A model generated the notes under the pieces. It was not told the DNA's origin and searched no databases. It saw nothing but the letters and a program-made list of their open reading frames with translations. This document shows positions 7,494 through 47,446 of a stretch of 50,684 nucleotides of DNA, piece by piece; the stretch's first letter is position 1, and each line of letters starts with the position of its first letter. The translations under genes and the position numbers were made by a program. This stretch comes from a virus, in the IMG/VR virus record IMGVR_UViG_3300042938_001669, positions 1 through 50,684 of that record, one strand, 5' to 3'.

Positions 7494-7799
7494 ATGAAGA
7501 TTATAATCACAGAGAACAAACGAATCCGTCTCGCCATTAATTGGTTAGAAGAGGAATATCCCGACTTAAAAAAGATGATATTCCCCTCACACGAAGGAGT
7601 ATTCATATCCGATAAGGGAATGTTCAAAATGCTTTACAACAGTAGAGTAAAAGGATTCTATGTTTTAAATGAAATATGGGATTTTATCCGTAGTATGTTC
7701 GGATTTGATAACGATGAAGTTAGTGAGTTGTTATTGGATTGGGGTAATAAAAAGTTTGGGTTTAGAGCCAAGAAATGTCATAGAGTAGAACAAATATGA
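7494..7799 (+). CDS. Tagged small protein (MKIIITE), 101 aa
   Basis: ATG at 7494. Residues 1-8 MKIIITEN form the short N-terminal tag, followed by a helix (KRIRLAINWLEEEYPDL). After a beta segment comes a C-terminal helix ending LLLDWGNKKFGF. It shares this layout with the proteins at 7796, 13673, 13999, 14331, 14630 and 15605. If the tag is cut after ITE the mature protein starts at Asn8. Biochemical function unknown. It overlaps the next gene by ATGA. Confidence 0.75.
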   Translation: MKIIITENKRIRLAINWLEEEYPDLKKMIFPSHEGVFISDKGMFKMLYNSRVKGFYVLNEIWDFIRSMFGFDNDEVSELLLDWGNKKFGFRAKKCHRVEQI

Positions 7800-8149
7800 A
7801 AGTAATAATCACAGAGAACAAGAGAAAAAATGTCGTTACCAAATGGTTGGATATGGACTATGGTAACTTAAGGAAGTATTCCGTTGGTCATAGATTTATT
7901 ATCTATAAAGATAGTGGTGACGATATGTCTTTCACATTTAATCGTGATAATGGAATAGTTGAATTATCTGAGGAGATATCAAATCAATTAGTATCTATGT
8001 TTGGTGTTACAAGTGGTTATGATATAAACGATATCTTTATCCCTTGGTTTATGGAAAGATATAATCTACACGTTGAAAAGGTTGTATATACTACTTGGCA
8101 TTGTAATAAATGTGGTAGATATCATATCACTAAATATCATATTGATTAA
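7796..8149 (+). CDS. Tagged small protein with C-terminal zinc knuckle, 117 aa
   Basis: Start ATG overlaps the previous stop (ATGA). Tag MKVIITEN, then the same helix-beta-helix layout as its neighbour (KRKNVVTKWLDMDYGNL, later IFIPWFMERYNLHV). It differs by a C-terminal TTWHCNKCGRYHITKYH, a likely Cys2His2 zinc site. Transcribed with 7494-7799. Probable capsid-packaged effector by the tag argument; direct function unknown. Confidence 0.75.
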   Translation: MKVIITENKRKNVVTKWLDMDYGNLRKYSVGHRFIIYKDSGDDMSFTFNRDNGIVELSEEISNQLVSMFGVTSGYDINDIFIPWFMERYNLHVEKVVYTTWHCNKCGRYHITKYHID

Positions 8150-8155
8150 TCCCAC

Positions 8156-8210
8156 GTTTATAAGGTTTAGGACTTATATTAGTGGTTTATAAGGTTTAGG
8201 ACTTATATTA
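8156..8210 (+). repeat. Tandem direct repeat, 26 nt x2
   Basis: Identical 26-mers at 8156-8181 and 8185-8210 (each starts GTTTATAAGG and ends ACTTATATTA), period 29. They lie between the convergent genes ending at 8149 and 8208. Only two copies, no spacers, so not CRISPR. Confidence 0.85.
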
Positions 8211-8465
8211 TGAGTATTCGTAGAAATTGTCCCCCTCTGTAGTGAATCTAAATAAAAATCTGTAGGGTATTGAACCAAGTGTACTTAAAACGGTCCAACA
8301 TTCTTCCACAATCTCCTCCTCAACTTCCGATTCGGTTCCTGCCATCCAAAATGTAATCTCTATTGTATCATCATATGATGTTATGTGATATTCCATAATA
8401 TCATCATCCATAGGTAATATGAATTTATCTATTAACTTATCTACTATTTTTAATACTGCCTCCAT
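8208..8465 (-). CDS. Hypothetical acidic protein, 85 aa
   Basis: ATG at 8465. No tag; acidic (VEEEIVEECW) with an N-terminal helix MEAVLKIVDKLIDKF. The promoter region has TACATTTA and a pair of AT-rich palindromes (8473-8533), so it may be separately regulated. Last codons overlap repeat copy 2 at 8185-8210. Confidence 0.6.
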   Translation of the reverse strand: MEAVLKIVDKLIDKFILPMDDDIMEYHITSYDDTIEITFWMAGTESEVEEEIVEECWTVLSTLGSIPYRFLFRFTTEGDNFYEYS

Positions 8466-8472
8466 AGTGTTA

Positions 8473-8533
8473 AATGTATACTATAATATACATTATCCCC
8501 GTTTTTATTGTGTTTTGTATATTATAATATACA
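8473..8533. promoter_or_regulatory. Two AT-rich palindromes upstream of the 85-aa gene
   Basis: TGTATATTATAATATACA at 8516-8533 is a perfect 18-bp palindrome. A second, imperfect 22-bp palindrome at 8473-8494 has the arms AATGTATA/TATACATT. Both share the half-site TATACAT and flank the start of 8208-8465: a likely dimeric-regulator operator pair, or in part an AT-rich terminator for 8534-8947. Confidence 0.45.
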
Positions 8534-8947
8534 TTAATAACTTTTCCCCGTTCCTTTATATAATAATCTAAGACAGTCCGGTGATATGTTCTCGAATGTA
8601 ACTATATGATGTTTGTAATATCCACCATCAAAATGTTTGTCTTTATACCAAGTAACCCCGGCACATTCCGTATTGATAATCCAAATGTCATCGTCATATG
8701 TGGAATCAAACATATCTTTTTCATCTAATGAATCTGTTGCAAATATGGATGGTTTACATTCTTCATCGTCACCGACGTGTGATTGATAACATTCCCCCAC
8801 CGATGTTTGTAATCCGGTAAGTTCTATGTTGTCTCTCCATATAGGATTTGATTTATGAACAATATATTCCCCCGGAGTATATTCATCACTCGCCGGAGAA
8901 TAGGATTCCTCTCTTAATATTCTTCTTATGGTATCTTGTAAACTCAT
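8534..8947 (-). CDS. Tagged protein, possibly ADP-ribosyltransferase-like, 137 aa
   Basis: ATG at 8947. The long tag MSLQDTIRRILRE is followed by a linker and a domain containing YIVHKSNPIWRDNIELTGL (about 28-46), PSIFATDS (66-73) and HHIVTFENISPDCLRLL (about 113-129). The order of a YxVH start, an 'R..I...GL' helix, an 'ifAt.s' strand and a late acidic strand recalls small ART/KptA-like folds. T4 Alt, an ART, is also packaged by an N-terminal peptide, but fold assignment here is tentative. Last gene of the 11455-8534 tagged operon. Confidence 0.6.
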   Translation of the reverse strand: MSLQDTIRRILREESYSPASDEYTPGEYIVHKSNPIWRDNIELTGLQTSVGECYQSHVGDDEECKPSIFATDSLDEKDMFDSTYDDDIWIINTECAGVTWYKDKHFDGGYYKHHIVTFENISPDCLRLLYKGTGKSY

Positions 8948-8949
8948 AT

Positions 8950-9408
8950 CTATTTGTAGTGTTCTACTGCGTCAACCATAAACAGGAAAACCTCATCTAA
9001 TGTATTATCATCCAAATCCTCATATCGTTCAGTATAACTACTTCTGTGTCTTTCATACTCTTCACCACCATAAACATCTATGGTAACATACTCCGGGTTG
9101 AAATACTCAATTTGATGTAACTCCTCATCAGGAGAACCATATGGAATAGAATTCATATTTAATTCATACGTAGATATCCCGGTTGAATTATGTTTGTAAG
9201 CTAAATGTTTTATAGCCTCTCTAATAAAATCAATCATTTCTTCATTTGAGAACACATAATCCCCCATTAATTTTGTAACTTTGTCATAACCCCCAAAATA
9301 ACGAGTGGCTTGGTATAACCCCATTTCTTGAACAACATCAACCACTTTATTCTCATTGATAATCCCCATCATCTGATGGATTCTATGTATGTTCTCGTTT
9401 AAATTCAT
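8950..9408 (-). CDS. Tagged paralogue A (YFGGY family), 152 aa
   Basis: ATG at 9408. Long tag MNLNENIHRIHQMMGIINE. After it, LYQATRYFGGYDKV, then MIDFIREAIKHLAY, STYELN and an acidic C-terminal helix (LDEVFLFMVDAVEH). Two neighbours (9411-9956 and 9960-10685) share the layout. The first 44 nt of the coding region are identical to those of the next gene. Function unknown; very acidic. Confidence 0.75.
   Translation of the reverse strand: MNLNENIHRIHQMMGIINENKVVDVVQEMGLYQATRYFGGYDKVTKLMGDYVFSNEEMIDFIREAIKHLAYKHNSTGISTYELNMNSIPYGSPDEELHQIEYFNPEYVTIDVYGGEEYERHRSSYTERYEDLDDNTLDEVFLFMVDAVEHYK
9365..9408. repeat. 44-nt tag-coding repeat, copy 1
   Basis: Identical to 9913-9956. It encodes residues 1-14 plus two bases of the next codon of the long tag. 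The sequences downstream of it diverge strongly. Confidence 0.85.
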
Positions 9409-9410
9409 AA

Positions 9411-9956
9411 TTAAATTTTTTTAGCTATAAACTCAAATGCGTTATTAATCATATCATCCGGTAAATCCTCATATTTAATTGTTTCACTATGGTCATCATT
9501 TTCGGTTTGAGATGAAAACTCACCATTCTCATTTCTATAAAATGTTGTTACATTTAATTCATCAGTATAGTATGTAAATGCTACCTTTTCATAAGTTTCA
9601 GTACTCTCTAACACAGAATAATCACTCTCGTCCCAACCTTCATCTCCATAAGTAAACAATCCGTAGTATTGAGTAAAAATTGTATCCTTAATAAACTCAA
9701 TCTTATCTTCTCTTGATGTAATAGTATTTAAATCAACAGGATTGGTCTGTAATGTACTCGCGTGCACCCATTTACCACTCTTCCTATCATAAACCAAATT
9801 TAGATATTTTTTAAGGTTCTCATAACCCCCATAATAATTAATAGCATCTCTAATACCTAATATATCAATTATTGTTTTAACAGTGTTTGGACTCACATCT
9901 TCACTCACTACACCCATCATCTGATGGATTCTATGTATGTTCTCGTTTAAATTCAT
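9411..9956 (-). CDS. Tagged paralogue B (YYGGY family), 181 aa
   Basis: ATG at 9956. Tag MNLNENIHRIHQMMGVVSE, then VKTIIDILGIRDAINYYGGYENLKKYL, a longer middle, KIEFIKDTIF and an acidic C-terminal helix PDDMINNAFEFIAKK. Paralogous to 8950-9408 by the GGY segment and end helix. Two nt separate it from that gene. Function unknown. Confidence 0.75.
   Translation of the reverse strand: MNLNENIHRIHQMMGVVSEDVSPNTVKTIIDILGIRDAINYYGGYENLKKYLNLVYDRKSGKWVHASTLQTNPVDLNTITSREDKIEFIKDTIFTQYYGLFTYGDEGWDESDYSVLESTETYEKVAFTYYTDELNVTTFYRNENGEFSSQTENDDHSETIKYEDLPDDMINNAFEFIAKKI
9913..9956. repeat. 44-nt tag-coding repeat, copy 2
   Basis: Perfect copy of 9365-9408, located at the 5' end of the next gene in the operon. 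Confidence 0.85.
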
Positions 9957-9959
9957 ATC

Positions 9960-10685
9960 TTAGTGGTTTAATAATATCTCAACCAATTCCTCAATTATTT
10001 GCACAGGTAAACTTTCATACTTAGAATAATAGTCCCTTAAATGACCACTATACTCATCTTCATATACACTAATGTCTACACTTGTTAGTCCTAACCATTC
10101 TATTTGATGTTCCTCCCCATCTTCATCACTATAATGAAGTGGCTCTTCATTTATCTCGTGTAAACCAACACCACTACCATCATCACTTAATTCTCTAACT
10201 TTTTCTTTAATAAAATTAACTTTATCAACCACTTTTAAGTATGGCTCAATTGTGTAGTAATTCCCAAAATACTTAATGGCATCAGAAACCCCCAAAGTTT
10301 TTATCATATCAGAAATACTATTATCTTTACTCTCTTTTATAATATCGTCACAACTCTTTACGTGTTTGGTAAACATATCTAATTTCTGTCCGGTATAATT
10401 ATATACCAAATCCCACACCTCATTCATTACGTTATCCATCAATTGAGCTCTTGTTGTTGAATACCCACCTTTATGAGCAATTAAATAAAATGTTGCTCTG
10501 TAATTCTCATAAACATTATCCGAATGTGGTAGTTTGGTTCTCTTGTCCGGGTGCTTAACCTCAACCTTACAAAGAATGTCTTTGTGGTCATTAACAAATC
10601 CCTCTAATAACATTTCTATTACCGAAGTTAAATCTTTATTTGTTTCTTCCCTTAATATTCTTTTTATGTCATGTCGTAAGTTCAT
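9960..10685 (-). CDS. Tagged paralogue C with extra N-terminal domain, 241 aa
   Basis: ATG at 10685. The tag MNLRHDIKRILRE differs in sequence but matches the long type. Residues about 18-110 form an inserted domain (IEMLLEGFVNDHKDILCKVEV ... LMDNVMNEVWDLVYNYTG) absent from paralogues A and B. Then ISDMIKTLGVSDAIKYFGNY, NFIKEKVREL, GVGLHEIN and the usual acidic C-terminal helix. A mosaic: one tag, one extra domain, one family domain. Overlaps 10685-11455 by 1 nt. Confidence 0.7.
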   Translation of the reverse strand: MNLRHDIKRILREETNKDLTSVIEMLLEGFVNDHKDILCKVEVKHPDKRTKLPHSDNVYENYRATFYLIAHKGGYSTTRAQLMDNVMNEVWDLVYNYTGQKLDMFTKHVKSCDDIIKESKDNSISDMIKTLGVSDAIKYFGNYYTIEPYLKVVDKVNFIKEKVRELSDDGSGVGLHEINEEPLHYSDEDGEEHQIEWLGLTSVDISVYEDEYSGHLRDYYSKYESLPVQIIEELVEILLNH

Positions 10686-11455
10686 TATTTATCTTCAGGT
10701 AATTTTGTATCTTTAATAAACTTCTTGTGTGAATCCTTATATGATTTTTGAGTTTCATCATTCACATCTTTGGTATATTGCCAATTCCAATACAAGTCAT
10801 TGTTTGGTTTGAATCCATAAAACTTATGAACTTCTTTCTGTGTTTCAGTTACGTTCTCACCATTCCAATTCTGTCCAACACAAATGAATCCTGTCTCAAT
10901 ATCTTTAACAAGATTTGATTCCCCCAATGTTGCGTGTCTGTTCTCAATCCAAGTCAATCGCTCAATTAAATTCTGATAGAACATATTGGTTTGTCCCCAT
11001 CTAATTGAACTAAAGAATACAACAGCATCTGACTCAAATAACTCTTTGGATATCTTCCATAACTCATCCTTTGGATTGTTATAACTTGCCCAACATCTAT
11101 GGTCTCCGGATGGATTCTTTTTCTTATCTTTGAGCATAGATTTAAGTAATCCACAACTGTTCCCGTCTTTTCTTGATACATTCCCCTCACAAGGAACAAT
11201 GTTAAGTTCGGAAACATCAATTAACACTGAGTCTTTTAACTCATCGTTAAGATACATTGCAATCATCTTTGATTTTGGTATGTCAAGGTTTTTTTCATCC
11301 CAATTATATCTATTGGAACAACTTAAGATTAAAACTTTCTTTTTCTTTTTAAGAATGTCTAATGTTTTTTTGATTGATTTCCACGCATCTGATTGGACCA
11401 TCTCCTCAGAAATCATCATTTGTCTTATTCTTTGTATATCTTCGTGTAAGTTCAT
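10685..11455 (-). CDS. Tagged flavodoxin-fold NAD(P)H-dependent reductase, 256 aa
   Basis: ATG at 11455. Tag MNLHEDIQRIRQMMISE, then a flavodoxin-like domain: KKVLILSCSNRYNWDE (first strand and FMN-phosphate loop, about 39-54), VLIDVSELNIVPCEG (metal- or disulfide-like Cys), SDAVVFFSSIRWGQTNMFYQNLIERL (about 140-165, the family signature with W-G-x-x-x-x-x-x-Q-N), and TGFICVGQNWNGEN. Members reduce quinones, azo or metal compounds through bound FMN. First gene of the tagged operon, with a TATATTTATA motif 4 nt upstream. An enzyme carrying this tag is strong evidence for protein targeting. Confidence 0.75.
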   Translation of the reverse strand: MNLHEDIQRIRQMMISEEMVQSDAWKSIKKTLDILKKKKKVLILSCSNRYNWDEKNLDIPKSKMIAMYLNDELKDSVLIDVSELNIVPCEGNVSRKDGNSCGLLKSMLKDKKKNPSGDHRCWASYNNPKDELWKISKELFESDAVVFFSSIRWGQTNMFYQNLIERLTWIENRHATLGESNLVKDIETGFICVGQNWNGENVTETQKEVHKFYGFKPNNDLYWNWQYTKDVNDETQKSYKDSHKKFIKDTKLPEDK

Positions 11456-11458
11456 AAC

Positions 11459-11468
11459 TATAAATATA
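11459..11468 (-). promoter_or_regulatory. Putative phage promoter motif TATATTTATA
   Basis: Exact TATATTTATA, 4 nt before the ATG at 11455; heads the operon of five tagged genes. Confidence 0.6.
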
Positions 11469-12765: not shown

Positions 12766-13173
12766 TTAGTAACTTACTAAACTCGCAGCCGTTAGTTCTC
12801 TAACACCATAGTCCGGGAAATGTTTTTTGAAGAAGTCCTGAAGTCCGTATTTAAAATGTCTTGATAAATAACCGTATGGTATATAACCTTCCAAATTTTC
12901 TTGTAAGGAATAATCATACCATAATCTTTCATTTATTTTATCATATTTAATTAGATTTTTGTCAAGGTTTTTCCCATTAAGCAAAACTATTATTTTACCA
13001 TTGTTAATTTCTGCCTTTGAATCTATTTCCATCTCTAAAAGTTTAATTATAGTTTTTTTCCATTTTGGATATTCTTCCTCATACTCTTGGTCAGAACGAG
13101 CTCTTGAGACATAAGCGTCCTTACCTTCAGTCATTATTTGTTTAATTCTATATACGTTTTCCTGTATGTCCAT
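12766..13173 (-). CDS. Tagged hypothetical protein, 135 aa
   Basis: ATG at 13173. Tag MDIQENVYRIKQIMTE, with Met instead of Ile/Leu at the -3 position. The body is moderately charged (KKTIIKLLEMEID, a beta segment, then LSRHFKYGLQDFFKKHFPDYGV). Single-gene unit with its own GATATTTATC motif 3 nt upstream. Function unknown. Confidence 0.7.
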   Translation of the reverse strand: MDIQENVYRIKQIMTEGKDAYVSRARSDQEYEEEYPKWKKTIIKLLEMEIDSKAEINNGKIIVLLNGKNLDKNLIKYDKINERLWYDYSLQENLEGYIPYGYLSRHFKYGLQDFFKKHFPDYGVRELTAASLVSY

Positions 13174-13176: not shown

Positions 13177-13186
13177 GATAAATATC
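13177..13186 (-). promoter_or_regulatory. Putative phage promoter motif GATATTTATC
   Basis: On the coding strand GATATTTATC ends 3 nt before the ATG at 13173. Confidence 0.5.
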
Positions 13187-13672: not shown

Positions 13673-14002
13673 TTAATAATAGTCACCAATTAAATTAATC
13701 TCCTCCGGTTCTATTCTTAATCTATTTTTAACCCACCAATGAATAACTCTTTCAAGTTCTTCTCCACTGAATGAGAACAATCTTAGTGGTTCCCACATAA
13801 CTTTATTAACTTCCAATAAATCGTATTTTTCGGACCACCACATAAAAATGTCATCGCTGTTATCTCTGAATATTATTTGTTGGTTACTAAATACGGAATC
13901 CTTATTTAAATCAATGTCCTCACGAGTCAATCCATTCAAAATATCGTCTAATATCTTGTAGGCTAATTGGTATCTTTTATTTTCTGTGATTAATATTTTC
14001 AT
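13673..14002 (-). CDS. Tagged small protein (MKILITE), 109 aa
   Basis: ATG at 14002. Tag MKILITEN + helix KRYQLAYKILDDILNGL, beta region with FMWWSEKYD, then a helix ELERVIHWWVKNRLRI and a short end. Same layout as the 7494 protein. Last gene of the 16128-13673 run of tagged genes. Confidence 0.75.
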   Translation of the reverse strand: MKILITENKRYQLAYKILDDILNGLTREDIDLNKDSVFSNQQIIFRDNSDDIFMWWSEKYDLLEVNKVMWEPLRLFSFSGEELERVIHWWVKNRLRIEPEEINLIGDYY

Positions 14003-14328
14003 AACTCATTATCTATCCAAATCCAAGAATATCTAACTATTTTATCAGTTAATTCCTCATAACATATTCCTATCATTTCCTTTAGTTCTTCTTCAGATGA
14101 AACAAACATTCTTAAACTAATAAAGTAATCCGGATATATAATTAATTGACGATTACTTGGTCTATATACCAACCCTGTAACCGCATTATCATCATATACC
14201 TCATCAAAGTATATGTAGATAATGTTCTCGGTATGTCCGGCTCTTGTTGGAGTTAATTTATTAAACAGGTTTTTAAACTCCTCTCTAAATAACATATCTC
14301 TTTTATTTTCTGTGATTACTATTCTCAT
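13999..14328 (-). CDS. Tagged small protein (MRIVITE), 109 aa
   Basis: ATG at 14328, 4-nt overlap with the next gene. Tag MRIVITEN, helix KRDMLFREEFKNLFNKL, central strands IIYIYFDEVYDD and QLIIYPDYF, C-terminal helix SEEELKEMIGICYEEL. Member of the short-tag paralogous set; function unknown. Confidence 0.75.
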   Translation of the reverse strand: MRIVITENKRDMLFREEFKNLFNKLTPTRAGHTENIIYIYFDEVYDDNAVTGLVYRPSNRQLIIYPDYFISLRMFVSSEEELKEMIGICYEELTDKIVRYSWIWIDNEL

Positions 14329-14330: not shown

Positions 14331-14630
14331 TTACAACATTTTATACTCAATACCCCAATGTGAACCTGACATATCAATATCCAAACCAAACATACGATTA
14401 ATATCAGCTCTAATTTCTCTTAATGTTCGTGTTGGACTATTCTGCATCTCACCTCCTCTAAACCCAACATTAATGATGTTTCTTTGAATTGTTCTTCTCT
14501 CACTTTTATTACCACTAGCCAAGTAAACATCCTTTGTTGTAAATGTCACGTTTTTAACTACAGGATAACCATTGAGGATATAGTTCTCAATTAAATTATT
14601 ATACTTACTTTCCTTTATTAATACTTTCAT
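14331..14630 (-). CDS. Tagged small protein (MKVLIKE), 99 aa
   Basis: ATG at 14630. Tag MKVLIKES + helix KYNNLIENYILNGYP, Arg-rich middle (NKSERRTIQRNIINVGFRGG), C-terminal RADINRMFGLDIDMSGSHWG. More basic than its neighbours, so its target may be nucleic acid. Overlaps 14630-15010 by 1 nt. Confidence 0.7.
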   Translation of the reverse strand: MKVLIKESKYNNLIENYILNGYPVVKNVTFTTKDVYLASGNKSERRTIQRNIINVGFRGGEMQNSPTRTLREIRADINRMFGLDIDMSGSHWGIEYKML

Positions 14631-15010
14631 TATATGAAATTTGTTGTTAATTGAGTAACCTCTAACCCTGTATTATCTTCAAACCATTTCTTGAATATTG
14701 GTTTCCATATGTCACCAAAAGTAGAATCCAATCTTTGAGTTATAAGGGGGTATATTGACAGTAAAGGACATTTATAATTATGTAGATGACCATAACCCGC
14801 AAAGAACTCATCTTCCGGACCGGCGTTTGCATTACAACCATAATAAATATAAGATTCTCGGTCATCAACAAAGAAAAGAACATCACCATATTGTTTAACA
14901 TCTTTTTGATAAACATCAGGATTTGCCCACCCATAATCAGGGTAATACGAATCATTTAAGTAATCAATGATTAAACTTTCTAATCTGCTCTCAGTTATTA
15001 ATACTTTCAT
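14630..15010 (-). CDS. Tagged small protein (MKVLITE), 126 aa
   Basis: ATG at 15010. Tag MKVLITES + helix RLESLIIDYLNDSYYPD, acidic strands VLFFVDDRESYIYYG, C-terminal helix IWKPIFKKWFEDNTGLEV. Same architecture as 7494 and 15605. One-nt overlaps on both sides show tight coupling. Confidence 0.75.
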   Translation of the reverse strand: MKVLITESRLESLIIDYLNDSYYPDYGWANPDVYQKDVKQYGDVLFFVDDRESYIYYGCNANAGPEDEFFAGYGHLHNYKCPLLSIYPLITQRLDSTFGDIWKPIFKKWFEDNTGLEVTQLTTNFI

Positions 15011-15603
15011 TACTTATTTAATTGGATATTATAAACACTTCGGTATTTTCTTTCTAACTCATCATCAGGTAGTTTTTCCAATTCACTAAGTTTATATAAA
15101 GTATTTGTATCAATATAATCAATCATATATTCTCTACTTAGGTTTGAAGTATTAATCATTTTATAACATTTATGGTCACTATCCGTTTCGTGAGTCTCAT
15201 CAATCTCCAATTCCGGGTGTCCGGTTTCTTGACCAAACTTGGTAGCGTATTTCTCATCATACCATTCGGTAATTACATTAAGTAAATAGGGTTTTCTAAC
15301 CTGTAACATTTGAGATAAAAAATCAATTTCTTCTTTATTAACATATAAATCACCACCAAAAAACTTTTCTTCATCACTATCTTCACTACTGAAAAAGTAT
15401 CTTGCCTGCATAATAATTTTATCACCTTTACACCACTCCTCATTAAAGTTTCCATAATTCTCTTCAGGTGGGACAACAACTCTATTTGTTTCGGATATTA
15501 AAGACTCCATCTGTTTAATAATAAGACGCTCAAAACTTTGATTAGATTTTGTAAATCTCTTCTGAACTTCCTCTCGTAATATTTTTTTAATTAACTCTTT
15601 CAT
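15010..15603 (-). CDS. Tagged hypothetical protein, 197 aa
   Basis: ATG at 15603. Long tag MKELIKKILRE, then EVQKRFTKSNQSFERLI. The body has an acidic N-terminal half, a central YFFSSEDSDEEKFFGGDLYV and the end helix LSELEKLPDDELERKYR. The N-terminal tag matches that of 19432 (MKELIRQILRE) and 39748 (MKDLIRRILKE) although the bodies are unrelated. Confidence 0.75.
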   Translation of the reverse strand: MKELIKKILREEVQKRFTKSNQSFERLIIKQMESLISETNRVVVPPEENYGNFNEEWCKGDKIIMQARYFFSSEDSDEEKFFGGDLYVNKEEIDFLSQMLQVRKPYLLNVITEWYDEKYATKFGQETGHPELEIDETHETDSDHKCYKMINTSNLSREYMIDYIDTNTLYKLSELEKLPDDELERKYRSVYNIQLNK

Positions 15604-15604: not shown

Positions 15605-15934
15605 TTAGTTTAACACTGATTTATTTACGTGATGAATATATTGAACCGGTAATTCAAAAAACTCTGAGAACCATTCACCAATAACATCTTTAAGTTGTTT
15701 TGGTGTGTAACTAAGTAGATTAAGTGGACGAGTGACATCTTCACAGATATATAAAATATTATCAGTATTACCGTAAATCATTATGATTCCTTCACCATTA
15801 CGGTATTCGATTGTTTTGTGTTCCCCCCGTGAATCTGTCATATAATTAACATCTTCATACATTCCGGAGAATTCCTCAGTTAATAACCGTTTGGCAATTC
15901 TATCTCTTTTATCTTCTTTAATCAATATCTTCAT
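15605..15934 (-). CDS. Tagged small protein (MKILIKE), 109 aa
   Basis: ATG at 15934. Tag MKILIKED + helix KRDRIAKRLLTEEFSGMY, strands TIEYRNGEGIIMIYG, C-terminal LKDVIGEWFSEFFELPVQYIHH. Paralogue of the 7494/14630 type. Follows 15934-16128 by overlap. Confidence 0.75.
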   Translation of the reverse strand: MKILIKEDKRDRIAKRLLTEEFSGMYEDVNYMTDSRGEHKTIEYRNGEGIIMIYGNTDNILYICEDVTRPLNLLSYTPKQLKDVIGEWFSEFFELPVQYIHHVNKSVLN

Positions 15935-16128
15935 TATTCTATGATTCTAAAACGTAACAATGGTTTACCGTTTATTGTAATATCCCCCTTTTCATTCTTG
16001 TCGATTGTCTTCACAACAACCTTCTTGTTCTTAAATTTTCCACCCATAATGGTATCACCTACCTTAATGTTAAGTTTAATCATCTCGTTGATGGTTTCAT
16101 ATTGTGACTCTGTTATAATTAACTTCAT
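15934..16128 (-). CDS. Tagged short SH3/KOW-like protein, 64 aa
   Basis: I take ATG 16128, giving MKLIITESQYETINEM; a longer form from an earlier codon would cross the promoter motif. After the tag, LNIKVGDTIMGGKFKNKKVVVKTI and an all-beta end resemble a small SH3-like or KOW domain. First gene of the tagged operon 16128-13673. Confidence 0.65.
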   Translation of the reverse strand: MKLIITESQYETINEMIKLNIKVGDTIMGGKFKNKKVVVKTIDKNEKGDITINGKPLLRFRIIE

Positions 16129-16131: not shown

Positions 16132-16141
16132 AATAAATATC
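16132..16141 (-). promoter_or_regulatory. Putative phage promoter motif GATATTTATT
   Basis: Coding-strand GATATTTATT, 3 nt before the ATG at 16128; heads seven tagged genes. Confidence 0.55.
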
Positions 16142-18692: not shown

Positions 18693-19061
18693 TTAAACTT
18701 TATTAAAATCCTTATCAACAAATTTAATTGATTTAGGCTCCTCTTTATATATTGATTTATATTTCTTGGTATACACCTTAAAAATTCTCTTAATTAAATC
18801 TTCTTTAATTACATCATAAACTTTCCGAGAAACCCAAGGTTTAACCAAATCATAAAACTTATCATCAAACACAATTATGTAATTCCACTCAAAATCATAT
18901 TTAGCAACCATTTCTCGTCTTGTTGTTACAGAAGCTAAAAATTCTAAATAACTCATTCTTACTTGGAAATTGTGTGATAGACGATTGACATCTACACCCA
19001 AACCATCAAAGATAGTATCCATTAAAAACTCTAACTTCCCCTCACTAATTTTAACATCCAT
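18693..19061 (-). CDS. Tagged hypothetical protein (MDVKISE), 122 aa
   Basis: ATG at 19061. MDVKISEG is a short tag variant with Asp2 instead of Lys; a helix (KLEFLMDTIFDGL) follows. The rest is basic and helical (SRKVYDVIKEDLIKRIFKVYTKKYKS). Its own TATATTTATA motif is 3 nt upstream. Single-gene unit. Function unknown. Confidence 0.7.
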   Translation of the reverse strand: MDVKISEGKLEFLMDTIFDGLGVDVNRLSHNFQVRMSYLEFLASVTTRREMVAKYDFEWNYIIVFDDKFYDLVKPWVSRKVYDVIKEDLIKRIFKVYTKKYKSIYKEEPKSIKFVDKDFNKV

Positions 19062-19064: not shown

Positions 19065-19074
19065 TATAAATATA
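19065..19074 (-). promoter_or_regulatory. Putative phage promoter motif TATATTTATA
   Basis: Exact motif, 3 nt before the ATG at 19061. Confidence 0.6.
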
Positions 19075-19418: not shown

Positions 19419-19428
19419 TATATTTATT
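19419..19428 (+). promoter_or_regulatory. Putative phage promoter motif TATATTTATT
   Basis: Exact nine-base core, 3 nt before the ATG at 19432. Confidence 0.6.
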
Positions 19429-19431: not shown

Positions 19432-19917
19432 ATGAAGGAATTAATTAGACAGATATTAAGGGAATATACAGAACCAAAACCAATTTTAATATATGAAATT
19501 GTTGTAAATAATATCTTAGGTGAACAAGATTTTATTAGAAGATTACATAGAAGTGAAAATAGTTTAATTAACTTGTATAAAAACCCCCATTCTCAGGAGT
19601 CTGTCGGTTCTAGTAGTTCATTTCAAAGAGTTGACCCAGATGAAATTAACGATTCTATAATGGATATAGAATCAACAATAATACAATCAGCAAGAAGAAT
19701 AATGCAAGAATGTGTTGTTAGATGTTCAATTAATGTTATCGACAATGTAGCGGGTATTGATTATCATATGTGGTTAAATGGAACACATAATAGGATTAAA
19801 ATAATTATAAATACATCAATTCAACACCCTAACCATCTTAAATTTAGAGTTAACGAATCCCCAACAATTATTGTTGATAGATATGGTGATGTGTTTACAA
19901 GAAATATGCCCAATTAA
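19432..19917 (+). CDS. Tagged hypothetical protein (MKELIRQILRE), 161 aa
   Basis: Start set at ATG 19432 (a longer in-frame TTG start crosses the motif). Tag MKELIRQILREY, then a mixed alpha/beta body with SIQHPNHLKFRVNESPTIIVD near the end. One of few tagged genes on the plus strand; its motif keeps the same orientation relative to the gene. Function unknown. Confidence 0.7.
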   Translation: MKELIRQILREYTEPKPILIYEIVVNNILGEQDFIRRLHRSENSLINLYKNPHSQESVGSSSSFQRVDPDEINDSIMDIESTIIQSARRIMQECVVRCSINVIDNVAGIDYHMWLNGTHNRIKIIINTSIQHPNHLKFRVNESPTIIVDRYGDVFTRNMPN

Positions 19918-22706: not shown

Positions 22707-23416
22707 TATGTCCAGTAATTATGTTCCTTTGTGAAGAACTCATCATTATTTCTATTAAACCAAGATTTAATCATCATCTTAACCATATAGAATAAACCTT
22801 TGTTCTTGAATCGTCTTGATGTGGTATAAACAATTTTGTTTGCCACATAAAACTTATTTGGTTTTATTTTTGAACTTAAATGATAATCCTCAGCGAACTT
22901 GTCATCCGGATTAAATCCTCCCAATGAATTGAATTCCTCTAAATTAAATAACATAAATCCTCCAACCGCAAAGGGTGTGGAGAATTTGGTTAAGTATTGG
23001 ATAACATCAAATGATTTGTACACATAATTGTAATCACCATCGTCAGTTCTCATTTTAGTTGTTGACAAATGATAATCATTTTCTTTCATAACTTCAACCA
23101 TACAATTTAATAAACAATATTGGTTGATGAATATGTCGGCATCCAAAAATAAAACATAAGGAGTTTTTATCTTTTTGACACCATTGTTTCTGGCTTCAGC
23201 CGGAAATCCCCCTTTAACTATTTTTACATTGATGTTGGTATGGTATGAACCAAGAATACATTTCTGTGTGAATCCATCGTCCGTTGAAGAATCGGCAACC
23301 ATTACATTTACACCTTTAATATTATTTTGCAAGTTTAACAATCCTAAAGTTTTCTTTATGATTAATCCCTCATTTTTGCAGGGGATTACAATTGTTAAAT
23401 CCTTACTTAAACTCAT
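22706..23416 (-). CDS. Family 2 glycosyltransferase, 236 aa
   Basis: ATG 23416. LTIVIPCKNEGLIIKKTL (7-24) is the GT-A start. LFLDADIFIN (89-98) holds the DxD motif and FAEDYHLSSKI (174-184) holds the catalytic ED. NKIVYTTSRRF suggests the acceptor side. No membrane domain; soluble or peripheral. It probably transfers a sugar from a nucleotide donor to a surface or DNA acceptor. Overlaps the tagged 530-aa gene by 4 nt (ATGA). Confidence 0.8.
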   Translation of the reverse strand: MSLSKDLTIVIPCKNEGLIIKKTLGLLNLQNNIKGVNVMVADSSTDDGFTQKCILGSYHTNINVKIVKGGFPAEARNNGVKKIKTPYVLFLDADIFINQYCLLNCMVEVMKENDYHLSTTKMRTDDGDYNYVYKSFDVIQYLTKFSTPFAVGGFMLFNLEEFNSLGGFNPDDKFAEDYHLSSKIKPNKFYVANKIVYTTSRRFKNKGLFYMVKMMIKSWFNRNNDEFFTKEHNYWT

Positions 23417-25010: not shown

Positions 25011-25020
25011 TATAAATATA
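25011..25020 (-). promoter_or_regulatory. Putative phage promoter motif TATATTTATA
   Basis: Exact motif, 5 nt before the ATG at 25005. Confidence 0.6.
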
Positions 25021-30716: not shown

Positions 30717-31798
30717 GGTTTGTAATGTCTTTGATATGATTTAAATCTTTGTTGACTAATATCATCCGTATCAACTATATTAAAATACCTCTCAACATCC
30801 GGATTGTTAATTAATTTAAGAAAGTAATCATTTACCTGACTTCGAGCAATCGATAATCTTTTTAATTTTGTGTATCGTCTGATAGATAATTCTGTAGACA
30901 TTTTCTTATACAACCAATAAGGTATTTTAATAAATTCAAAACCTTCTTTACCTTCAACCGGACCTAACATTTCTATTTGAGATTTTGGTAACTTACTAAA
31001 GAATATATGAATGTTGTATGATTCCGCACCATCCATAAACAAACCAGCATTATCCAATTGTTCGTGAATGTTTAATACATCAATCATCTTCCCACTATCC
31101 CCGGTAATCATATAGGCACCAATCATAGCTTTCTCTTCAGGTAGATAAACTAATTTATTAAAGTTGGGTGTTGTATCCACAATTTCCTCTTGTTCGTTTA
31201 ACCTTGATGATAATGGTGGGTCCAATAAAAACTTATCGTTAACCCAATGTCTTAACTCATTCTCAACAAAATACTCAGGAACTTCTTCGTCATCCGGTTT
31301 GTTTGAAGCAATTTCTGCAATATGTCTAGCAAACCTAATTTTATATTTATCATCCATCATAGTCATTAAACCATCGGATATGAAGAATATCTTAGAGAAG
31401 GGGTCACTTAAATGTAAATCACCCTCAGCAACCTGAAATGATTTAAGAATTACTTTACCCCAAAAAGTTTTATAATTTTCAGTTTCAGTTAAACTTGGTT
31501 TTAATATTTTGTTAACGGCTCTAATAACTCCACCAACAATACCAGGAATCATAAGTTGTGGTAAGAACCAAGGCAATAATCTAATTGTCGCTTTAACACC
31601 ACCTTCACCAACGTGTTTAAATATTCTTTGTTTTGTAGCACTCTCAACAATTGCTCGTAACTGACCAAAGGTAATCTTACCTTGGGCTTTACAGAACTTC
31701 TCACTATCACAAATGTTTTTAATAGTTGTTTTTGACGGTTCTATATCAGTATTCTCTAATATTTTAAAATATTGGTTTTCTTTAATTATAATTCTCAT
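30713..31798 (-). CDS. Tagged protein with central membrane-like segment, 361 aa
   Basis: ATG 31798. Short tag MRIIIKEN + QYFKILEN. Around 95-112 the segment LLPWFLPQLMIPGIVGGVI is hydrophobic enough for membrane insertion, followed by a long charged region. If packaged and delivered, it could insert into the host membrane. Own TATATTTATA motif 3 nt upstream. No enzyme motif seen. Confidence 0.65.
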   Translation of the reverse strand: MRIIIKENQYFKILENTDIEPSKTTIKNICDSEKFCKAQGKITFGQLRAIVESATKQRIFKHVGEGGVKATIRLLPWFLPQLMIPGIVGGVIRAVNKILKPSLTETENYKTFWGKVILKSFQVAEGDLHLSDPFSKIFFISDGLMTMMDDKYKIRFARHIAEIASNKPDDEEVPEYFVENELRHWVNDKFLLDPPLSSRLNEQEEIVDTTPNFNKLVYLPEEKAMIGAYMITGDSGKMIDVLNIHEQLDNAGLFMDGAESYNIHIFFSKLPKSQIEMLGPVEGKEGFEFIKIPYWLYKKMSTELSIRRYTKLKRLSIARSQVNDYFLKLINNPDVERYFNIVDTDDISQQRFKSYQRHYKP

Positions 31799-31801: not shown

Positions 31802-31811
31802 TATAAATATA
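31802..31811 (-). promoter_or_regulatory. Putative phage promoter motif TATATTTATA
   Basis: Exact motif, 3 nt before the ATG at 31798; overlaps the divergent host-type -7 box TATATTTG at 31808-31815 that faces the plus strand. Confidence 0.55.
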
Positions 31812-35283: not shown

Positions 35284-35802
35284 TTATTGTTGACTAATAT
35301 ATTCTGAATCAAATATTACTTTAATTCCTGTTTTTGATGTTATGTTCTCCTTGAAATAATCATTTATACCCCACTGAACCTCGTCACTAACTTCCCACCC
35401 ATAATCATCATCATTTAACGCATCTTCTAATGTTCTATTCTCACCATTTGAAACGGTAACTGTTCCCGACAAATCATTAACTTTTACACTAACAACAACA
35501 TTTGGTTGTTTTTCATCCAATTCCCAATAGTCAATGTCATCCACCTCAAAGAAGAAATCGTATCCACCATACTCATCTATATGATGGGGATTCTGAAGTA
35601 ATAAAGTTTTGGCAAGTTCTTTTGATTCTTCCTCACCTCTCCACTCAATTAAGTATTTGTAAGCATCATCATAACTAACCATACCAGTTCTATCATCCAA
35701 CTTAAACATATTGATGAATTGATTATCTACCTCACCCCCAAACTTATCAAAGTATTTGAATACGACGCTCTTATGTTTGGATTCCGTTATTATTAATTTC
35801 AT
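35284..35802 (-). CDS. Tagged hypothetical protein (MKLIITE), 172 aa
   Basis: ATG 35802. Tag MKLIITES, then a helix KHKSVVFKYFDKFGG and an acidic body with VVVSVKVNDLSGTVTVSNGE (a beta sandwich-like strand pair). TATTTATA motif 30 nt upstream. Lead gene of a three-gene unit. Confidence 0.7.
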   Translation of the reverse strand: MKLIITESKHKSVVFKYFDKFGGEVDNQFINMFKLDDRTGMVSYDDAYKYLIEWRGEEESKELAKTLLLQNPHHIDEYGGYDFFFEVDDIDYWELDEKQPNVVVSVKVNDLSGTVTVSNGENRTLEDALNDDDYGWEVSDEVQWGINDYFKENITSKTGIKVIFDSEYISQQ

Positions 35803-38824: not shown

Positions 38825-39748
38825 TTAATTTAATAATTCTATTTCCGTGTTATCATCCGTTAAGTGAGTCGGATAAGTTCTCAGTATGTCTTGTTTAATA
38901 GTTTTCATAATGTTATTCAATAATTCGGGGTCATCTTTAAAATTGGAATCCGGAGACATTTTTCTACCAATCATTTTACCTGCCTTAAGAATTTCAACAG
39001 ATATTTTAATTTTACCATCAACATCTTCAATATCTTTAATCATAAAATTAACTCTATGAGCATTATCACCATAACCTCCACTAATTAATTTTGATTGATT
39101 AGTCTTATTATCTTTATGTGTTACAAAACTTGTTACCCTATCAGATTTAACTCTATCAATATTATAACTACCATTTATAAGACGTTCCATCTCACCTTTA
39201 GTTATACTCATAACATTTGCTCGTAAATTTGAATCGTATTTAACCGGGTCAATTTGACTCATTTGTTTTCTAGTAGAACTTGAATAGGTATCTAATGTTC
39301 TATACCATTGGTTATTAATAAATAAAAATACCGGATACCAACCATATGACTCAATAACATAATACCAATCATTGTTATTGTTTACATTCCATTGTCCTTC
39401 AATGTTTGAACCTTTAAACGGCATCTTAGCTGTCGCATATTCATAGGCGGTATTGTTGGTAACTTTTCTTTGTTTGAATTGTCTATAGTCTTTGAAATTG
39501 TCCTTTGTTAAACTTTTATAGTCCCCGTCCGGTCTGAAGTTAGCGGTATATATTTCGTAATACATAGTGGCATCACTTTGTGGGAAACCAAAATATCCTA
39601 ACATATCTTTAATAAGTCGAATCATTTCAGTTTTGGTTCCTGATTTCTGCTTATTATCGTTAATAAATTTAAACAACAAAATCTCCTTCTTACTTAAGAC
39701 AGGTTCTTCTTCTTGTTCTTTTAATATACGTCTGATTAAATCTTTCAT
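38825..39748 (-). CDS. Tagged hypothetical protein (MKDLIRRILKE), 307 aa
   Basis: Start set at ATG 39748. Long tag MKDLIRRILKEQ, then SKKEILLFKFINDNKQKSGT and a central basic region. KMPFKGSNIEGQWNVNNNND and WYYVIESYGWYPVFLFINNQ suggest a small globular domain. Third gene behind 40668, after the ferritin-like gene. Function unknown. Confidence 0.7.
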   Translation of the reverse strand: MKDLIRRILKEQEEEPVLSKKEILLFKFINDNKQKSGTKTEMIRLIKDMLGYFGFPQSDATMYYEIYTANFRPDGDYKSLTKDNFKDYRQFKQRKVTNNTAYEYATAKMPFKGSNIEGQWNVNNNNDWYYVIESYGWYPVFLFINNQWYRTLDTYSSSTRKQMSQIDPVKYDSNLRANVMSITKGEMERLINGSYNIDRVKSDRVTSFVTHKDNKTNQSKLISGGYGDNAHRVNFMIKDIEDVDGKIKISVEILKAGKMIGRKMSPDSNFKDDPELLNNIMKTIKQDILRTYPTHLTDDNTEIELLN

Positions 39749-40347: not shown

Positions 40348-40668
40348 TTATTTTCCTATTATCAGGTCGTCAAACCCTAGTTTATTCATTCCCCCAACTT
40401 CTTCATCATCTTTCAATTCGTCATACATATATGCTCTAACAACAGATGTAATACTTTGTTCTACCTGAGCTATTTTACTTTCCATCCAATCGTCAAGTTG
40501 GTCGTTTTCTTCTTCTTCCATCTTTTCCCACATCTTTTCAGCTAACTTAACAATAGTATATAATTGTTGTTTTGCCATATATGAACCACGACCTTCATCT
40601 TCTTTAATGGTTTTCATTTTGGTAACCAACTTTTCAAGTTGTTTTTCTGTTAATATAATATCCTTCAT
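40348..40668 (-). CDS. Tagged hypothetical protein (MKDIILTE), 106 aa
   Basis: Start set at ATG 40668. Tag MKDIILTEKQLEKLVTKM, then an acidic helical body (KMWEKMEEEENDQLDDWMES). Coiled-coil-like; could be scaffolding-type. Leads the operon with ferritin and the 307-aa tagged gene. Confidence 0.65.
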   Translation of the reverse strand: MKDIILTEKQLEKLVTKMKTIKEDEGRGSYMAKQQLYTIVKLAEKMWEKMEEEENDQLDDWMESKIAQVEQSITSVVRAYMYDELKDDEEVGGMNKLGFDDLIIGK

Positions 40669-40680: not shown

Positions 40681-40690
40681 TATAAATATC
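40681..40690 (-). promoter_or_regulatory. Putative phage promoter motif GATATTTATA
   Basis: 12 nt before the ATG at 40668. Confidence 0.5.
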
Positions 40691-44784: not shown

Positions 44785-44788
44785 AAAA

Positions 44789-44863: not shown

Positions 44864-44873
44864 TATAAATATA
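44864..44873 (-). promoter_or_regulatory. Putative phage promoter motif TATATTTATA
   Basis: Exact motif that precedes no protein gene. Confidence 0.45.
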
Positions 44874-44890
44874 TCGTAAAATTAGAAAAG

Positions 44891-45316: not shown

Positions 45317-45331
45317 TTTATATTTTTTTGT

Positions 45332-45340
45332 GTATTTATA
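45332..45340 (+). promoter_or_regulatory. Putative phage promoter motif GTATTTATA
   Basis: Five nt before the ATG at 45346. Confidence 0.45.
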
Positions 45341-45345
45341 AGTAT

Positions 45346-45693
45346 ATGGAATTAACTATAAACAAAAATAAATTCAAAGTCAAAACTGTCATCTCATCCA
45401 AAGACACTAGTCAAGGTATGATGAATAAAAGATTTGATGATACCTTTAATGGTATGTTATTTATTATGTCCGAAGGTCAACACTGTTTTTGGATGAAAAA
45501 TTGTATAATACCATTGGACATCATTATGATTGAAGATGATATTATAACAAAAATTCACCACAACTGTCCCCCTTGTAAAACCAAAGATTGTAGAAACTAT
45601 TGTGGTGAAGGTGATATGATACTTGAACTTCAAGGTGGAACCTGTAAAAAATTAGGTGTTAAATCGGGTGATAAAGTTATTCACTACGATTGA
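45346..45693 (+). CDS. DUF192 family protein, 115 aa
   Basis: Start placed at ATG 45346 (MELTINKNKFKVKT). GMMNKRFDDTFNGMLFIM and CFWMKNCIIPLDIIMI with IIKIHHN-type strand are the DUF192 signature. Members are small periplasmic or cytosolic beta proteins, many with a signal peptide; this one has none. Function not settled. Converges and overlaps the DHH gene by 10 nt. Confidence 0.85.
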   Translation: MELTINKNKFKVKTVISSKDTSQGMMNKRFDDTFNGMLFIMSEGQHCFWMKNCIIPLDIIMIEDDIITKIHHNCPPCKTKDCRNYCGEGDMILELQGGTCKKLGVKSGDKVIHYD

Positions 45694-47090
45694 TTTATCT
45701 TTTCCTGTAATAATTTCACAAACTCATTCTGAATCATTTTAGTAAACTTAATGTAAGGAGCATCTTCCGATTCTCTATTATAACCACCGGTCCCTTTTGG
45801 TGGACGATTACTTCTACCCATAAAATTTAACCCCGATATATTTGTAATACATTTGTGTCCCCCACTATTTGCCTGAATAAAATCCCAAGCATTTACCTTA
45901 ATGTTATCTAACATTTGTCTATGTTCTTCAGGTAACTCAGAGAAAGGTTTTTCCATCATCTCACCGATGTGAATTAATTCCTCTTTACCATCTTCCTTAT
46001 TTTTATATTCCTTACCATACAACGCAACAAAATCTTTAAAGGTAAATCCTGTTGATTCCGAATTAAAATCTTTTGATGATTCTGAAATCCATTTAATTGT
46101 TGAAAGGGTTATCTCTCTTTGTTTTAATTGGTCCTCCCATTTTGATAATACCTCTTGGGCAATCTCACCTAAATTCACACCTTTTAATTGACGTTCTCCT
46201 TTGAATGGGTTACAAGACGCTTGAACTAACCCTAACGGCCAAGCAATAACAATAAAGTCAGCCTCAGGATTATTTTTGAATGGTGTGTATCTATCGTAAG
46301 AACCTGGCTTAAACATTGAACCCCCACCATATTGAACAATAACATTACCTAATACTTTAACATTAGGGTTAGTTTGCATTGATGTGACATAGTCTTCTTT
46401 ATTCTTTTCAAGTTGGTCCGGTTTCGCGTATCCTTTCTCAACCATTATTCGTTTAATGGTGTGAAGTATATTTAATAACGATGGAGAACATTCCATAACC
46501 AATGTCTCTAAGAACCCTGGTTTGTTTTTAAACGCTAATAATAGTTTGTTAACAACTAACCCCATTAACATTTTATTCTTTTCTAACGATTTCTCTTTAT
46601 CTAATCTGAATAAGTAAGAGATTACTTGGTCCACTGAAATATCGTTAACCGCATAGTTTGCAGAATCTACAGTAGAAATAAGTAATATGTCTGAGGATGG
46701 GAATAATTCTTTTGGAGAAACTACCTGAGAGATTGTCTCAACATTTGAACGGGAACTTCTAAATGATGTTGATTTAGTGTCTTCAGCTCCGGCTTGTCTA
46801 TCGTGGTGGTCTGTGTGAATCACAAACATTGGTTTTCCGTGAGCAAAATCAACTAAAACAGGCATCACGTCCCCTTTAGCGTCATTCTTCTTTACAGCGA
46901 ACTCTTTATCACCATATTGGATGATATGAGAATCTATTACATCAATACCATTATTCTTAAGATATTCTTTCATCGCAATAGCCGTAGTTACACCATCTAA
47001 ATCTTGGTGAAAATATATTTCAGCTTTAGGGTATCTTTTAGCAAGAGCGTTAATGTCTCTTAATCCACTTTCTTTTATAAGTTTTTTCAT
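45684..47090 (-). CDS. Tagged DHH-family phosphoesterase, 468 aa
   Basis: ATG 47090, overlapping the previous stop (TAATG). Short tag MKKLIKES, then AEIYFHQDLDGVTTAIAMKE with the D-x-D-G motif (28-33), VLVDFAHG, FVIHTDHHDRQAG with the DHH motif (92-97) and GGHKCITNISGLNF (410-423) from the DHHA1-like C-terminus. These are metal-dependent phosphodiesterases that attack short nucleic acids, cyclic dinucleotides or pAp. Delivered with the genome it could degrade host alarm nucleotides used in antiviral signalling; that is an inference. Confidence 0.75.
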   Translation of the reverse strand: MKKLIKESGLRDINALAKRYPKAEIYFHQDLDGVTTAIAMKEYLKNNGIDVIDSHIIQYGDKEFAVKKNDAKGDVMPVLVDFAHGKPMFVIHTDHHDRQAGAEDTKSTSFRSSRSNVETISQVVSPKELFPSSDILLISTVDSANYAVNDISVDQVISYLFRLDKEKSLEKNKMLMGLVVNKLLLAFKNKPGFLETLVMECSPSLLNILHTIKRIMVEKGYAKPDQLEKNKEDYVTSMQTNPNVKVLGNVIVQYGGGSMFKPGSYDRYTPFKNNPEADFIVIAWPLGLVQASCNPFKGERQLKGVNLGEIAQEVLSKWEDQLKQREITLSTIKWISESSKDFNSESTGFTFKDFVALYGKEYKNKEDGKEELIHIGEMMEKPFSELPEEHRQMLDNIKVNAWDFIQANSGGHKCITNISGLNFMGRSNRPPKGTGGYNRESEDAPYIKFTKMIQNEFVKLLQEKINQS

Positions 47091-47446
47091 TAATCTAAAC
47101 CAAACATATGTAAACCTTTATCAATGAAACTACCTTCATCGGATACACATTGTTTAAAAAGTTGAACGTCTTTATCAGACATTTTATTTTGTGTTTCAGG
47201 ACCCCAAACACCATCTGCGGTAACACCAATCTTAGATTGATATTTACTTAAAGCTTCCGCTGTTTTACCCGCTAGTAATCCGTCAACTTTTAATGGTTGA
47301 TTCGCATCATCTTTATAACCTTTTTTGTTAAGGAAACATTGTATCCCTTTTTTAAGTTCAAAACCATCATTTTGTTCATTAACTAAACCATATCTTGAAC
47401 GGATATCTCTTTTTTCATCTTCCGAAATTATAAATCTTTTTGCCAT
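47090..47446 (-). CDS. Tagged peptidoglycan-binding protein, 118 aa
   Basis: ATG 47446. Leader MAKRFIISED with I-S-E, an Ala-Lys variant of the short tag. LKKGIQCFLNKKGY, DGLLAGKTAEALSKYQSKIG and ADGVWGPETQNKM form a PG-binding type-1 domain (about 32-93). No catalytic domain. In a virion it could hold the DHH enzyme or the particle to the cell wall. Confidence 0.75.
   Translation of the reverse strand: MAKRFIISEDEKRDIRSRYGLVNEQNDGFELKKGIQCFLNKKGYKDDANQPLKVDGLLAGKTAEALSKYQSKIGVTADGVWGPETQNKMSDKDVQLFKQCVSDEGSFIDKGLHMFGLD

Follow-up and report, generated by a model that had tools for sequence, protein, structure and literature searches.

Leaders of 24 genes in a viral record

The IMG/VR virus record IMGVR_UViG_3300042938_001669 (positions 1 to 50,684; G+C 32%), hereafter called the window, meaning the whole stretch of 50,684 bases, carries a set of open reading frames whose products begin with a short leader ending in [I/L/V/M]-x-E. 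The first-pass annotation had listed 24 such starts, and all 24 were confirmed as ATG codons of open frames of 64-530 amino acids (aa; 3 on the + strand, 21 on the - strand) with a leader of this kind, the motif having I or L in 22 cases and V (9956) or M (13173) in the other two. The window is a fragment of a larger phage genome, and no tRNA gene was found in it.

Several leader types were distinguished. Among the short leaders on the + strand, MKIIITE (7494-7514; gene 7494-7799, 101 aa, not called by the gene caller) has the sequence TATTTAT (7482-7488) 5 nucleotides (nt) upstream of the gene, and MKVIITE (7796-7816) opens a protein of 117 aa (7796-8149) whose residues 1-6 lie outside the fold in an AlphaFold2 (AF2) model. 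On the - strand, short leaders are MKILITE (13982-14002; gene 13673-14002), MRIVITE (14308-14328; gene 13999-14328), MKVLIKE (14610-14630; gene 14331-14630), MKVLITE (14990-15010; gene 14630-15010), MKILIKE (15914-15934; gene 15605-15934), MKLIITE (16108-16128; gene 15934-16128, TATTTAT at 16133-16139), MRIIIKE (31778-31798; gene 30713-31798, 361 aa, TATTTAT at 31803-31809) and a second MKLIITE (35782-35802; gene 35284-35802, not called by the gene caller), which has related bodies also with long leaders. Variants on the same strand are the short-like MDVKISE (19041-19061; gene 18693-19061, TATTTAT at 19066-19072), which is missed by the strict pattern, and MKDIILTE (40645-40668; gene 40348-40668, TATTTAT at 40682-40688), which is a short leader with one extra residue. 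Two adjacent - strand genes begin with MKKLIKE (47070-47090; gene 45684-47090), on a 468-aa protein with a DHH domain (E 5.7e-5, below the curated cut-off), and with MAKRFIISE (47420-47446; gene 47090-47446, TATTTAT at 47463-47469), on a protein with a peptidoglycan-binding domain. In some leaders, the latter among them, cleavage may fall at a second [ILV]xE further along; cut there, the latter would read MAKRFIISEDEKRDIRSRYGLVNE.

The long form comprises MKELIRQILRE on the + strand (19432-19464; gene 19432-19917, TATTTAT at 19421-19427) and, on the - strand, MSLQDTIRRILRE (8909-8947; gene 8534-8947), MNLRHDIKRILRE (10647-10685; gene 9960-10685), which has related bodies with short, long and MMG leaders, MKELIKKILRE (15571-15603; gene 15010-15603), MKDLIRRILKE (39716-39748; gene 38825-39748) and MKLLESIKQIITE (24967-25005; gene 23413-25005, TATTTAT at 25012-25018), which opens a protein of 530 aa without a Pfam or PHROG family at E 0.1. 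The MMG type is found, again on the - strand, as MNLNENIHRIHQMMGIINE (9352-9408; gene 8950-9408, with the same protein at L090:7715-8173), MNLNENIHRIHQMMGVVSE (9900-9956; gene 9411-9956) and MNLHEDIQRIRQMMISE (11405-11455; gene 10685-11455, TATTTAT at 11460-11466). The remaining leader, MDIQENVYRIKQIMTE (13126-13173, - strand; gene 12766-13173), has TATTTAT at 13178-13184.

Specific leader patterns exceed chance in the window and its relatives

With its E at residues 6-20, the bare motif [IL]xE was present in 31 of the 97 called window genes versus 21.7 among shuffled N-termini (z 2.4); z was 3.9 to 6.7 in seven larger records, 2.1 in G015 and 2.8 in T4. Pooled over 2292 proteins it occurred 178 times at residue 7 and 111 times at residue 9, later positions giving about 40-50. 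Because the motif is common near N-termini, the 24 matches to it are by themselves modest evidence, and counting the bare motif as proof was rejected. The specific leader patterns are not due to chance: the short form matched 9 window genes versus 0.09 after shuffling and the long form 7 versus 0.00, and any leader type was found in 19 of the 97 genes, with 0 of 234 in a control using internal methionines. These 19 genes form 16 body clusters and all lie within the 24 listed initially, none being typed outside them. Since four of the 24 were not called with the listed start (7494, 9408, 9956 and 35802) and 19061 fails the patterns, the five were missed through start choice or pattern strictness, so that caller and patterns are conservative.

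The 361-aa window protein is encoded at 100% identity in G002 (272 kb) and G015; the window is closely related to G002 and G004, and G001 is a relative with similar tagged (leader-bearing) genes in a similar order. When nine records were pooled, 238 of 2410 genes were tagged, where about 16 were expected (summed shuffle means), and these fell into 107 body clusters (single linkage, blastp 1e-4); internal methionines gave 0-1.6 expected matches per record. In this pooled set [IL]xE is partly built into the patterns, so it is no independent test of the motif. The patterns were written after the leaders of the window, G001 and G005 had been viewed; the records whose leaders were not listed beforehand gave 34/337 (G002), 32/381 (G003), 40/369 (G004), 15/197 (G009) and 24/182 (G010), and 32-40 leader matches were found in each of the five records of at least 272 kb. 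T4 itself gave 1/258, and the patterns thus do not detect T4's own leaders.

As a finding that would speak against packaging, the first-pass annotation had named an even spread of the leader over non-packaged proteins of many unrelated genomes. The distribution found was uneven: a DNA pattern for the short leader followed by Asn-Lys matched 89 stretches of viral contigs versus 6 in genomes of bacterial and archaeal species, and only 1 of 122 homologues of chosen T4 and Immutovirus proteins with core functions (replication, packaging, tail) was tagged, versus 238/2410 overall (Fisher p 6e-5), the sole case being a head-completion homologue with a weak leader match. At 80 newly fetched loci the short leader with Asn-Lys had 96 matches, of which 89 open a frame that is 50 aa or longer or extends past the locus; upstream of every one of the 96, an in-frame stop occurs within 30 codons or the locus ends before that point. 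The long-leader pattern matched 55 viral stretches. The Glu stands at positions 7 to 16 in the short and long types and up to 19 in the MMG type. Leader codons vary synonymously and the Ser after the Glu is drawn from both codon boxes, which argues for selection on the protein.

Two observations concern the tagged set at large. One tagged family of G005 (MKIIITENQYELLK...) is present in four tandem copies (G005:160894-163323), which suggests a recent amplification. Genes preceded by TATTTAT at G010:46843, G009:28805 and G005:151394 have leaders of another style, MKK[VT]I[TR]L[TK]E.[DE]L..., and since this style escapes the patterns, the tag counts are low estimates.

Related bodies carry different leaders

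Leader types are swapped between related bodies. The family of the window protein starting at 10685 has 39 members (25 with long, 6 with MMG and 6 with short leaders, 2 untyped), that of 35802 has 29 (19 short, 8 long, 2 untyped) and that of 7796 has 155 (123 short, 9 long, 23 untyped). Because the family profiles had contained the leader, the comparison was redone with leaders removed; blastp then still linked short- and long-leader bodies (E 8e-43 with 52% identity in family 7796, 4e-22 in family 10685 and 2e-11 in family 35802), long- and MMG-leader bodies (3e-12) and short- and MMG-leader bodies (7e-8). The 80 DHH homologues, which have 42 different N-termini, all keep the Glu (one listing being shifted by a residue), while the preceding residue is K, N, T, S, V or I. 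Relatives of the DHH and peptidoglycan-binding proteins, adjacent and separately tagged in the window (45684-47446), are fused in L327:6046-9033 into one protein of 995 aa with one leader.

The AF2 model of the 117-aa protein (7796-8149) has a mean predicted local distance difference test score (pLDDT) of 84, with residues 1-4 below 50 and the first helix starting at residue 7, and despite the low pLDDT of this start MKIIITENK is the longest majority run in the alignment of the protein. For this protein the model led us to reject the leader as a strand of the fold. A fold search with the model gave no PDB match at E <=0.001 and eight viral matches at that threshold, all to uncharacterised proteins of uncultured phages.

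Among 97 representatives of the 107 tagged clusters, 15 Pfam families were matched at E 0.001, each by a single member, including DHH, LysM, peptidoglycan-binding, SLT, glycosyltransferase and methyltransferase families; some of the members concerned were probably tagged in error by the patterns. PHROG families among the 25 of 53 listed for the same representatives include HNH endonuclease, endonuclease VII, exonuclease, DNA-binding, endolysin, baseplate hub and head-tail proteins, some of which are probably pattern false positives as well (about 16 of 238 are expected) and some of which may be real exceptions. At least 82 of the 97 have no Pfam family, which would fit fast-evolving counter-defence proteins comparable to T4 Ip1-3.

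TATTTAT upstream of tagged and virion genes

The element TATTTAT came up when sequences upstream of genes were compared, without this having been planned, in eight records (G015 was left out). It was present upstream of 116 of 231 tagged and 34 of 59 structural genes, 4 of 51 genes for replication and nucleotide metabolism and 425 of 1951 other genes; when only genes with 40 nt or more of free upstream space were kept, a restriction adopted after a first look, the counts were 84/85, 22/26, 2/25 and 286/870, respectively. With duplicate N-termini removed 76 of 77 tagged genes had the element, the sole miss, MNPYPKRLQLILKEVYKEFP, looking like a false positive of the patterns. In the opposite orientation there was no bias (tagged 37/231, structural 11/59, replication 6/51, other 270/1951). 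The p-values are optimistic, since the genes that revealed the element also served to test it and the records are related to one another. We regard TATTTAT as a putative late promoter. It stands 4-6 nt from the ATG in 60 of the 116 tagged genes that have it, and the spacing of 4-5 nt in many of them suggests that their late mRNAs could be almost leaderless.

For the T4 late promoter sequence TATAAATA the same comparison gave no more than a modest enrichment (structural 0.15, tagged 0.05, other 0.05, replication 0.00). In T4 itself, the sequence was seen within 70 nt upstream of alt, gp22 and gp18 and was not seen there for ipI, ipII, ipIII and gp23, so this positive control is mixed.

Prohead protease and capsid protein in the relatives

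The first-pass annotation had also proposed looking for a T4 gp21- or HK97-type prohead protease and for the motif in the major capsid protein, and both were found in relatives: records of 126-322 kb encode a gp21-type protease, and their gp23-type protein has the motif at its maturation boundary. Peptidase S77, the prohead protease family, was detected in 9 of 16 chosen larger records and gp23 in 8 of the same 16. All nine with S77 belong to the 11 records that the short leader had led to, and none to the 5 to which the DHH protein alone had led; among a further 11 larger records found through the long leader, 6 have S77. The capsid boundary reads FLINE|A in seven aligned jumbo capsid proteins and IVSE|A in Immutovirus, next to FLTE|A in T4 gp23 and LLRE|S in T4 gp24, which lose 65 and 10 residues, respectively, at maturation (PMC9958956). 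The gene order is T4-like (portal, core protein, an unidentified gene, protease, a second unidentified gene, acidic scaffold, capsid), where position is the sole basis for the names core protein and acidic scaffold, and T4 and the relatives have the gp21 motifs LNHP and SSRG, with their His and Ser, in common. T4-type head genes are present in G002 and others of the group, and G002, which encodes the window protein at 100% identity, has both the protease and a gp23 with the boundary motif.

The nearest capsid proteins of cultured phages are those of Microcystis phage Mel-JY01 and Flavobacterium Immutovirus. Inside the head cluster of G001 lies a gene for ribosomal protein S21 on the opposite strand (L227:3328-3522), a placement as in jumbo phages predicted to infect freshwater Bacteroidetes (PMC9723584). 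The window phage and these bS21 jumbo phages probably belong to the same wider group, and the host of the window phage is probably a member of the Bacteroidetes. Unlike the present records, the bS21 phages are not associated with leaders or internal proteins in the text portions of that paper that were consulted.

Comparison with known systems

T4 Ip1, Ip2 and Ip3 are non-homologous proteins with a common capsid targeting sequence (CTS), which directs packaging and is removed by gp21; they are injected and inhibit type IV restriction enzymes of the host (PMC12373910, PMC9026906). The window proteins resemble them as dissimilar proteins under a short N-terminal leader ending in [IL]xE. T4 has three Ip proteins and at least ten are reported in related phages (PMC12373910), whereas 32-40 leader matches were found here per record of at least 272 kb; moreover, leader sequence and spacing are unlike MKTYQEFIAE of T4, and several interchangeable types are used. 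Because the leader differs, the proteins fall outside the T4 Ip family in the strict sense. The propeptide of T4 Alt is very short, with seven residues (PMC9026906), and its start, MELITE, resembles the short form MKLIITE; unlike T4 Alt, none of the 97 tagged representatives scanned matched an ADP-ribosyltransferase family in Pfam.

In phiKZ and SPN3US, as is proposed here, many head proteins of a jumbo phage are packed, and some are cut by a protease and ejected (PMC10052503, PMC13282480). SPN3US has nine substrates, six of eight N-terminal propeptides measuring 111-254 residues, and 42 uncleaved head proteins (PMC10052503, PMC13282480); the leaders predicted here have 7-16 residues (MMG type up to 19) and so differ from the long propeptides of the phiKZ/SPN3US type. 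In P1 DarB, a reporter reaches the capsid when it carries just the N-terminal 30 residues (PMC9024508), but this is one large protein of a different phage and not a leader repeated on dozens of proteins. Besides IPI-III, one further T4 frame (L232-L235) starts with the CTS-like MKTFKEFIKEDMVA.

Interpretation and alternatives

The protease, the boundary motif of the capsid protein and the uneven distribution of the leader support the T4-like capsid-targeting function that the first-pass annotation had proposed from sequence, and we put the probability that the leaders are capsid-targeting propeptides of T4-type internal proteins at roughly 0.8. Features that it had not foreseen, namely leader swapping, a disordered leader in one good model and an element common to virion genes, point the same way. 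Packaging, cleavage and injection would then proceed as follows. Judging from the common upstream element, the tagged proteins would be made late, together with the virion proteins; the leader would dock each of them to the prohead core, as in T4; the gp21-type protease, given its presence and the capsid motif in the relatives, would cut after the Glu of [I/L/V]-x-E and free the protein inside the head; and the proteins would pass with the DNA into the next host, where they would act early, for example by countering its defences, by analogy with T4 Alt and Ip1-3.

The leader could instead be a docking or sorting peptide that stays uncleaved, or one that targets a place other than the head (membrane, replication compartment). 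Leaders that are short, conserved and outside the fold in one good model fit any linear sorting motif, and after the Glu 139 of 193 leaders have S, N or E, where T4 gp23, IPII and IPIII have A. However, in the same phages the capsid boundary has the motif with which the leader ends, TATTTAT links the tagged genes to virion genes, the DHH family keeps its Glu while the residue before it varies, and replication proteins are devoid of the leader, which misfits import into a replication compartment; we therefore regard such sorting as unlikely. That the tagged proteins are one old paralogous family which inherited its N-terminal segment is disfavoured and, in our estimate, highly improbable. An iterative search with hidden Markov models did link many small tagged bodies (155 and 121 matches in two families), so that many of these are distant homologues and the 107 clusters overstate the number of independent families; yet the bodies include DHH and peptidoglycan-binding proteins and several long proteins without a Pfam match, related bodies bear different leader types, and the modelled fold excludes the leader. 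Equally improbable is a DNA or translation effect in which TATTTAT near the ATG constrains the first codons. This would agree with the frequent spacing of 4-6 nt, but structural genes have the element without the leader, the codons vary synonymously and the position of the Glu is not fixed.

Apart from the residue after the Glu and the relatedness of the small bodies, several results weigh against capsid targeting. [IL]xK likewise peaks at residues 6-7 (103 and 87), partly through the same leaders. The IPIII spacing (Y or F at 4, F at 7) was found in 0 of 97 window genes and at shuffle level in G001-G005, G009 and G010. In L036, L038 and L040, some homologues begin only at residue 5 of the leader (MIE, MIK or MNK before Asn-Lys, with stops upstream), and in another L038 homologue Lys replaces the Glu; the three homologues lacking leader residues 1-4 and this substitution mean that the leader is not kept everywhere. 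The model of the DHH protein is weak (mean pLDDT 64, residues 1-11 below 50). No S77 was detected in the window, in a search whose own controls gave no signal, and no T4 head homologue was found there, nudE being the sole T4 homologue among the called genes; nor was the protease found in 7 of the 16 and 5 of the 11 relatives, several of which are probably fragments. Late timing would follow from a sequence element found and tested on the same genes. No close isolate was found either: a set of 50,697 phage records gave no match for two tagged families, matches of the DHH family among phages were confined to uncultured huge phages, and for the 530-aa protein the one match in a cultured phage, Salicola SCTP-2, covered 25% of the protein at 32% identity. 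No cultured relatives with proteomics were found, nor any virion proteomics and cleavage data for this group.

The counts suggest at least 30 such proteins per complete jumbo genome, mostly of no known family and with several interchangeable leader types. A search of the literature (titles and abstracts, subscription papers being mostly outside reach) found no description of such leaders in these phages; it is highly likely that they work by the known T4-like principle, with leader types and a number of tagged proteins that are new. If capsid targeting holds, leader plus TATTTAT would predict from sequence the proteins that a large phage delivers into its host and, for about a hundred clusters, most without a Pfam match, would point to the virion and then the freshly infected cell as the likely place of action, suggesting several times more kinds of delivered protein than in T4; the set would also serve as a list for anti-restriction and counter-defence screening and as a source of candidate packaging tags.

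Leaders in other lineages of huge phages

The DHH body bears different leaders by lineage: MKKLIKE in the window group, a longer two-site leader in L327, and MISKYNQFINE and MLRKYGQFINE in LR745206 and LR756502, which by eye are like MKTYQEFIAE of T4 IPIII. On this basis we find it rather probable that large T4-type phages have a modular injected proteome with lineage-specific leader sets, a protein entering the head by acquiring a leader. If so, dozens of uncharacterised proteins per virion, probably anti-defence or takeover factors, could be read off the genome alone.

A broader aromatic (T-type) style was found in 15 of 192 genes of LR745206 versus 1.8 after shuffling and in 13 of 62 of LR756502 versus 0.8, and in stretches unseen when the pattern was written in 7/52 and 5/84 versus 0.5 and 0.6; this pattern does not match T4's own IP leaders. 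The exact IPIII spacing was marginal (LR745206, 6/192 versus 2.3, with a maximum of 5 in 200 shuffles; LR756502, 3/62 versus 0.9, maximum 4). An E-type style in LR756508 (28/142 versus 0.7; held-out stretches 7/42 and 3/43 versus 0.2) also occurs around head genes. Since it matches G003 (21/381 versus 2.1), where it overlaps the long type, and Immutovirus (9/208 versus 0.7), it is not private to LR756508. S77 was above the cut-off in LR756508 and below it in LR745206 and LR756502 (E 1e-4 and 2e-5).

Beside the capsid gene of LR756508 (L369:25715-31594), six proteins have similar leaders, an invariant R and, in four of the six, RGT. They were considered as ADP-ribosyltransferases on account of this motif, a candidate function that Pfam and PDB searches, with no significant match, did not support. 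The prohead protease gene of the same phage (L369:4499-6223) contains an intein-like and LAGLIDADG insertion, the intein match being below the curated cut-off. In the cultured Flavobacterium phage immuto (L303-L305; positions 1803, 103806, 117631 and 118632), four genes start with variants of ENFDLKKFLVENKLTxNSK, a leader-like repeat.

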